From positions 1 through 64,000 of the forward strand of contig CALUVG010000009.1 of assembly GCA_944324165.1 (NCBI GenBank): DNA of 64,000 bases. The letters run 5' to 3'. A model generated the notes under the pieces. It worked only from the letters and a program-made list of their open reading frames with translations. It did not search any database and was not told the DNA's origin. The translations under genes and the position numbers were made by a program. This document shows, piece by piece, positions 52,779 through 53,280 of this stretch. The stretch comes from Candidatus Gastranaerophilales bacterium (lineage in GTDB: Bacteria > Cyanobacteriota > Vampirovibrionia > Gastranaerophilales > Gastranaerophilaceae). Position 1 is the stretch's first letter. Each line of letters starts with the position of its first letter.

Positions 52779-52850
52779 GGGACTGTGGCGCAGCGGTAGC
52801 GCAGGGGACTCATAATCCCTTGGTCGTGGGTTCGAATCCCTCCGGTCCCA
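52779..52850 (+). tRNA. tRNA-Met (CAT), elongator type
   Basis: Cloverleaf folds: acceptor GGGACTG/CGGTCCC with discriminator A, D stem GCGC/GCGC, anticodon stem GGGGA/TCCCT with loop CTCATAA. The T stem GTGGG/CCCTC carries a T-T mismatch at its second pair, whereas tRNA-Lys in this window has the regular CCCAC. CCA is not encoded. The G1-C72 pair and loop favour elongator Met, although a lysidine-type Ile tRNA cannot be excluded. The last 16 bases are the start of the 178-bp repeat. Confidence 0.9.
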
Positions 52851-53253
52851 TTTTTTGCGTCTTGAATTTTTTTAAAAAAAGGGATGAGAACCACAAGGCG
52901 GAGCCTTGTACGGTTCGAGCGACACACGAGCAGAGTGCGGAGGCTTGCCGCCTATATGGATTCGTATCAATGGCGGCAACCGAAGTCACGTTTAATGCGA
53001 GTGTGTCAAGACAATCCCTCCGGTCCCATTTTTTGCGTCTTGAATTTTTTTAAAAAAAGGGATGAGAACCACAAGGCGGAGCCTTGTACGGTTCGAGCGA
53101 CACACGAGCAGAGTGCGGAGGCTTGCCGCCTATATGGATTCGTATCAATGGCGGCAACCGAAGTCACGTTTAATGCGAGTGTGTCAAGACAATCCCTCCG
53201 GTCCCATTTTTTGCGTCTTGAATTTTTTTAAAAAAAGGGATGAGAACCACAAG
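52835..53253. repeat. 178-bp tandem array containing the tRNA-Met 3' end (two full units plus a partial third)
   Basis: Unit 1 52835-53012 and unit 2 53013-53190 look identical; a third copy from 53191 continues to about 53253 and then diverges. Each starts with the tRNA-Met 3' end AATCCCTCCGGTCCCA and holds inverted repeats (ACAAGGC-GGA-GCCTTGT; GACACAC/GTGTGTC). The overlapping open frames through it are just repeat translations. It is GC-richer than its surroundings and may derive from element integration at the tRNA or encode a structured RNA. Confidence 0.88.
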
Positions 53254-53260
53254 CTTGTAG

Positions 53261-53280
53261 GTTGGGGTTTCTACCCCAAC
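53261..53280 (+). terminator. Terminator at the end of the tRNA/repeat region
   Basis: GTTGGGGT, TTCT loop, ACCCCAAC, followed by an A/T-rich tract ending in T6. Confidence 0.8.

Follow-up and report, generated by a model that had tools for sequence, protein, structure and literature searches.

What kind of element repeats the 3' end of a tRNA gene in tandem, directly behind that gene? The question is raised by a tRNA-Met locus in the window, by which we mean the whole 64,000-nucleotide stretch of Gastranaerophilales DNA that was analyzed. The tRNA-Met(CAT) gene, which adjoins uvrC, is found at 52779..52850 (end at 52850 or 52851; ARAGORN 52778-52851; Rfam tRNA, 68.9 bits) on the + strand, as are the units, cores, and helix strands described below. 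The last 16 nt of the tRNA, AATCCCTCCGGTCCCA, occur with starts at 52835, 53013, and 53191. Unit 1 (52835..53012) consists of these 16 nt, a T-rich spacer, the 5' strand of a helix named P1, and a core; unit 2 (53013..53190) shows no difference from unit 1, and unit 3 (53191..53253) is truncated to its first 63 bp, with the break falling within the first hairpin of the core. TRF gives the array a period of 178, 2.4 copies, 100% matches, and a score of 838, with an end at 53253. A preliminary description of this DNA had reported 178-bp tandem units starting with the last 16 bases of tRNA-Met, two of them full and identical and a third partial, and the exact positions bear this out. Two exact 16-nt copies beside their own tRNA are far beyond chance. 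We read the array, with a probability of roughly two in three, as a member of a family of structured repeats that resemble the tRNA-linked repeats (TLRs) of Escherichia coli and have cores copied between tRNA ends via P1 and T-arm homology.

The copy number of 2.35 units of 178 bp is that assembled in a MAG with short contigs, the units are 100% identical, and an arginine-rich 115-aa ORF runs across the array, so an assembly artefact or a coding repeat has to be considered. An artefact, which the preliminary description had raised, is unlikely upon comparison with relatives, because a related MAG (G002, locus L053) has three units at the same tRNA that are about 95% identical, and because arrays of like design recur at other tRNAs in many other MAGs. 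The ORF was rejected as a coding sequence: it has no Pfam match, hairpin indels shift the reading frame, and the start codon is unconserved, its ATG belonging to the P1/GAT sequence, which reads GAC or GGC where the tRNA has a different tail. Artefact and coding repeat together are scarcely credible.

Several other features lie in or near this part of the window. A REP-like hairpin, GTAGGTTGGGGTTTCTACCCCAAC, starting with GTAG, is found at about 53257-53280, and unit 3 is broken just upstream of it; in the relative L053, the sequence downstream of the array includes a fragment that reads like a RAYT transposase. Directly 3' of the array, at 53361-53927, is a Zeta-toxin-like/AAA_33 kinase gene. 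A second tandem repeat at 11779-12059 of the window (152 bp, 1.8 copies, 96% identical) has no relation to a tRNA. Scanning the window stretch for promoters and terminators gave nothing above chance, and Rfam, both at gathering thresholds and at E <= 10, found no known RNA there except the tRNA.

The core runs from GAGAACC through GGTTCGAGCG to CAAGAC and measures 127 nt in the window, compared with roughly 100-130 nt across the family. Core 1 (52886..53012) and core 2 (53064..53190) are matched by R1, a covariance model built from 13 units, at 52873-53024 and 53051-53202, with 137 bits each. The left flank of the core pairs with the tRNA tail copy to form the closing helix P1. Its 5' strand, AGGGAT (52880..52885; fold, covariation, and permutation), is the reverse complement of the tail ATCCCT, and its 3' strand, ATCCCT (53014..53019; fold), lies within the next unit's tRNA-tail copy. 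The tail copy starts, as a rule, at the T-loop base A58 and usually brings a terminator with it, so that the 3' end of the tRNA stays intact. The Met unit, with its T-rich spacer and no clear terminator, differs in this from most other units. Unit periods in these genomes are about 160-210 bp, and no integrase gene lies within.

Folded alone, the window unit gives the full structure including P1, with an RNA MFE of -60.5 kcal/mol (z = -5.2) and z = -4.7 when folded as DNA, in agreement with an earlier supposition that the unit is structured. Among 13 units from 12 tRNA kinds, a set that replaced a 21-unit RNAalifold set in which MAFFT had misaligned members with short hairpins, 28 of the 38 predicted pairs show compensatory changes. 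Across 112 units, 93% of cells are paired, versus 71% when shuffled and 36-43% when slid, and 33 of the 38 pairs covary; this alignment was fitted to the model and so leans towards the predicted structure. The complementarity between P1 flank and tail for the matched host tRNA lies above all 20,000 permutations across tRNAs.

It is possible that the unit is a structured RNA. A rival explanation is that the units are small-RNA genes, in which a read-through trailer of the tRNA would be cut like a tRNA 3' end and the copies would be kept for their function. The covariation of the structure is consistent with this, and analogous trailers, rrA/B/F and RttR, have been reported in E. coli; the E. 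coli TLRs give rise to RNAs that bind both Hfq and CsrA in vitro, but these TLRs are without a clear phenotype (PMC8144298). Wobble cells in the core comprise 40 G.U and 16 A.C, a slight sense-strand bias, and there is one invariant G.U column. With that column omitted, and in an alignment fitted to the structure, G.U nevertheless makes up 1.3% of core pairs versus 8.2% in the tRNAs of the same loci. This scarcity may point to a constraint acting on DNA or on both strands, although terminators and other very stable stems are G.U-poor too, and strong selection for such stems would equally lower G.U. Most units have a terminator between tRNA and core, and their gain and loss among related species, like the speed at which their sequence changes, are not what is expected of a needed RNA. 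We consider small-RNA genes a rather unlikely explanation.

How far the design extends was addressed by scanning the tRNA loci of the host genome (G000) for the tRNA's own 3' end recurring downstream. Of its roughly 39 tRNA genes, at least 8 have units, each with the 3' tail of its own tRNA: Met, Asn, Arg-CCG (3 copies), Lys-TTT (2, of different core types), Gln-TTG (2), Gly-GCC, Val-TAC, and Pro-TGG, the last with a different core. Related elements beside other tRNAs, which the preliminary description had suggested looking for, are thus present in the same genome. The tail copies at the other seven tRNAs are 12-19 nt long, with 1-3 units per tRNA, and the diverged relatives of the Met unit found by BLAST in the same genome are all located behind other tRNAs. 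In almost all eight loci the core ends with CAAGAC(A), followed by tRNA sequence from about A58; the tail copy starts two bases earlier at Gly and in one Lys copy, and a few bases later at Gln.

Of 146 genomes belonging to the bacterial family, 103 have R1 matches, and in a phylum sample 111 of 292 genomes were positive, all listed under this family. At least 65 of 106 distinct R1 hits lie behind a tRNA or tmRNA whose tail they copy, mostly 22-65 nt away, by a strict automatic rule for flanked hits (tRNA or tmRNA <=600 nt upstream, tail match >=9/12) under which some tails stay unmatched. The R1 family occurs behind tRNAs of most isotypes and tmRNA; units at the tmRNA genes of L226, L225, and L201 carry the tmRNA 3' tail. 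A second core type (GCGGATTTGCGGACGGATG...GAGCGTGGAGCAAATCCAAGAC) has the same tRNA-tail design at L006/L016, L014, L148, L142, and L254, and shares a stack with the first type at tRNA-Lys and tRNA-Gly. R1 also matches places away from tRNAs in G000 (L172, L175, L176, L178, and others), which are dispersed repeats with a related core and a closing helix of their own, GTCATCCTGAA...TTCAGGATCTC. Orphan cores with tRNA tails and no tRNA for kilobases upstream are found at G000:C13:5017-5104 (L177/L261), L253, L254, and L256. We found no literature on tRNA repeats in Gastranaerophilales.

A block of identity from the T-loop to the 3' end is the classic arrangement of tyrosine integrases. Such a block is repeated at the far end of the element here, and the units could accordingly be scars of serial integration or excision by integrase elements with the tRNA 3' end as att site. 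Different unit types are stacked at one tRNA (tRNA-Lys at L016, tRNA-Gly at L148), and at L142 an encoded CCA is kept solely in the displaced copy, both of which fit this explanation. Yet one core family serves most isotypes and tmRNA with different tails, a conserved structure of 38 pairs with a tail-complementary P1 is not an att feature, and no unit encodes or is tied to a tRNA-specific integrase. Integrase scars are therefore improbable. What holds from the preliminary description is that the tRNA 3' end serves as an anchor, that serial insertion fits the stacked types, and that the unit has the behavior of a short, structured mobile element. Classical attL/attR scars are not supported: an att model does not predict a left flank that is reverse-complementary to the tail, no integrase or cargo could be assigned to a unit, with one possible case of cargo at L142, and the same core occurs at most isotypes and at tmRNA with their own tails.

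The analysis found no enzyme that would mobilize the units, and saw neither a circular form nor movement in progress. A Y1 transposase (PF01797) was rejected as the mover: it was matched at E 1e-10 in 37 of 146 genomes, and unit abundance is not associated with Y1 presence; at this threshold the unit-rich genomes G000 (the host), G002, G019, G097, and G159 have no PF01797 match. Large integrated elements between a tRNA and its displaced tail were sought over distances of up to 20 kb before eight orphan cores, among which only the one in G129 had a same-strand tRNA upstream. There the tRNA and its units are separated by a Mu/TniB-type transposon, which is a later insertion and not the mover of the unit because it is inserted inside a unit. 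This transposon of ~15 kb (L260, G129:C2) lies between tRNA-Arg and the displaced units and has a Mu-type transposase and a TniB-like ATPase, DarT and macro-domain (DarG-like) genes, and, by reading only, genes like those of type I restriction-modification. At L142/L262 (G006:C3), ~1.1 kb between two tRNA-Asp tail copies holds an ORF that resembles a Clp N-domain membrane protein and is possibly cargo of a unit or a native gene caught between tails.

Do the cores themselves move between tRNA genes? Within the genus, G000 and G002 have units at tRNA-Met and G005 (L054) has none, and the Asn, Arg, Val, and Gly loci are likewise variable; tRNA-Ala is filled with units in L129 and empty in L126. 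At the empty Met site, the flanking sequence has diverged too far for the event to be defined. Some empty sites are probably losses and not pre-insertion states: the empty tRNA-Gln site of G003 keeps a P1 5' strand, GGCGGAAGGAT, behind its terminator, and since this strand persists the site may have been emptied by recombination between repeats. This presence and absence, together with the stacked core types, agree with the spread of cores between tRNAs.

More direct evidence comes from single genomes. The cores at Ser-GCT, Ser-GGA, and Arg-ACG in G141 are 91-97% identical, and those at Leu-CAG and Gly-CCC in G159 are 93-95% identical, compared with a median core identity of 60% when both the tRNA and the genome differ. 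The terminators and the tails outside P1 of these near-identical cores differ. The copied tail at Ser-GGA of G141, AATCCCACC, is that of Ser-GCT and unlike its own tRNA's AATCCCGCC, which points to a tail carried over from a donor. Movement of cores between tRNA genes is well supported by the near-identical cores on different flanks and the donor-like tail of Ser-GGA. At L142 the downstream tRNA-Asp tail retains the encoded CCA and the tRNA-adjacent end is without it, as if the original tail had been replaced by an incoming one. Such movement may be rare, since most orthologous cores look vertically inherited.

The same evidence bears on plain local tandem duplication or slippage of the tRNA 3' flank, with no mobile element involved. 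Units are identical within one array and about 5% divergent between species, arrays vary in copy number, and several repeat the terminator along with the unit, as local duplication would produce. Duplication accounts for amplification, but not for one core family behind many tRNAs; successive units at Asn, Val, and Lys have different terminators, and the presence of near-identical cores behind more than one tRNA of a genome refutes it as the whole story. Taken as a full explanation, it is highly improbable.

A further repeat is linked to the 5' side of the gene. Directly before tRNA-Met, at 52667..52778 on the + strand, is a probable companion element that begins with a near-copy of the tRNA 5' end, GGGACAGTGGC, followed by ACTCTGCCGAGC, a hairpin, GCGAGAGG, and the D-arm-like GGTAGCGC. 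Exact head copies are found in G002 (L053), in G004 (L298), and at other tRNAs, and the companion is absent in L054. The first 9-11 nt of the tRNA are copied exactly upstream in 12 of 173 tRNA contexts with no other RNA gene intervening; a hairpin core of the form CTCTGCC...GAGAGG and D-arm-like sequence usually come next, and some of these repeats are in tandem. Such 5'-linked repeats, with copies of the first 11 nt of the tRNA, occur in the window and at L053, L188, L298, L212, L034, and L249, with tandem periods of 104-112 bp (Pro, Met). At L260 and L214 the 5'-type hairpin core is present in opposite orientation and carries a tRNA-Arg tail, which suggests one superfamily serving both tRNA ends.

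In the reading that we prefer, copying of structured cores between tRNA ends, the gene-less folded core would be the element proper, placed between a left flank complementary to the tail and a direct tail copy. Cores would be copied from tRNA gene to tRNA gene with conserved T-arm and P1 sequences as homology, and the route might be template switching, ectopic conversion, or the action of a recombinase at the folded site. Identical units in tandem, such as those of the window, would then arise and be homogenized by unequal recombination or slippage, and unequal recombination would let arrays expand and contract. A broader proposal, which we put forward tentatively, is a new gene-less mobile class in which a folded core copies itself among tRNA and tmRNA genes. 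Each copy would bring the 3' tail of its host tRNA twice, once as the reverse complement and once as a direct copy, leaving the tRNA intact; a second version would work at tRNA 5' ends, with a head copy followed by the CTCTGCC...GAGAGG hairpin, and the 3'-linked tRNA-Arg core would be a 5'-type core in opposite orientation. The E. coli TLRs would be distant members, among them the rrnB T1-T2 region, which is used in expression vectors.

Known systems resemble the units in different respects. Tyrosine-integrase elements share the T-loop-to-3'-end identity block and the restored, intact tRNA; the units differ from them in that they lack genes, one core family has many tRNAs as targets, and the core is structured and has P1. 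The REP/BIME repeats of RAYT (Y1) transposases are likewise short, gene-less, folded, dispersed, and clustered in tandem, but are without a tRNA link, and unit abundance is not tied to Y1.

The E. coli TLRs comprise 22 repeats at ten loci, in which the last 18-19 bp repeat the 3' end of the upstream RNA, and they have no established function (Stenum 2021, PMC8144298, citing Egan and Landy 1978 and Rudd 1999). Known since 1978, they have gone unexplained in both function and origin. Both TLRs and Gastranaerophilales units lie directly 3' of a stable RNA gene, with a tail identity of 18-19 nt in E. coli versus 16 at the tRNA-Met unit and 1-5 copies per locus versus 2.35. Among the E. coli loci checked, tyrT/V, argV/Z/Q, lysV, and rrnB all have the tail copy. 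P1 is 10 bp at tyrT/V and is formed by GGGAGGAT/ATCCTCCC at argV, and exact matching found none at rrnB and lysV. The order at lysV, tRNA-terminator-core-tail-terminator, is that of the Gastranaerophilales units, and lysV repeats its terminator. A terminator repeated with the 5S tail is a suggested cause of the double terminators of three E. coli rRNA operons. The annotated Tpr ORF of E. coli (tyrT/V, L161 1288-1377) appears to start at the ATGAGA of the repeat structure; because this motif is shared by the repeats, the conserved ATGAGA may have produced the "protamine-like" ORF incidentally, and the ORF may not be a real gene.

The Rfam model RtT (RF00391), which represents the 178-bp repeat of tyrT, has the same period as the window array and includes the same closing helix of core left flank and tRNA tail. 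RtT and the Gastranaerophilales units have GGATGAGAA...TCGAGCG...AGCGAG in common, but not the inner 3' half. That the two periods are equal is probably a coincidence, since other units here are about 166-210 bp. The RtT model (gathering 45 bits) has no match in the window stretch even at E up to 10, or in G000-G002 at E up to 1. In the other direction, R1, searched at E. coli tRNA and rRNA loci only, aligns in register with three of the four tyrT repeats (13.6-16.6 bits, best E 0.026 for 117 kb) and has no hits at argVYZQ, lysV, and rrnB. Homology of the array family to the TLRs is thus only suggestive at the level of sequence.

TLRs have been described for E. coli (rrB also for other Enterobacteriales) and are also found on 5S rRNA; the Gastranaerophilales units differ in belonging to another phylum, in occupying at least eight tRNAs per genome, in core sequence, and in the evidence for copying between tRNAs. 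The same architecture in another phylum, in most genomes of one family and at most isotypes, means that it is no enterobacterial oddity, and with the covariation between P1 and host tRNA and the near-identical cores an unexplained repeat becomes a testable mobile element. The nearest known kind for the tRNA-Met array is the TLRs of E. coli, with an architecture common to both.
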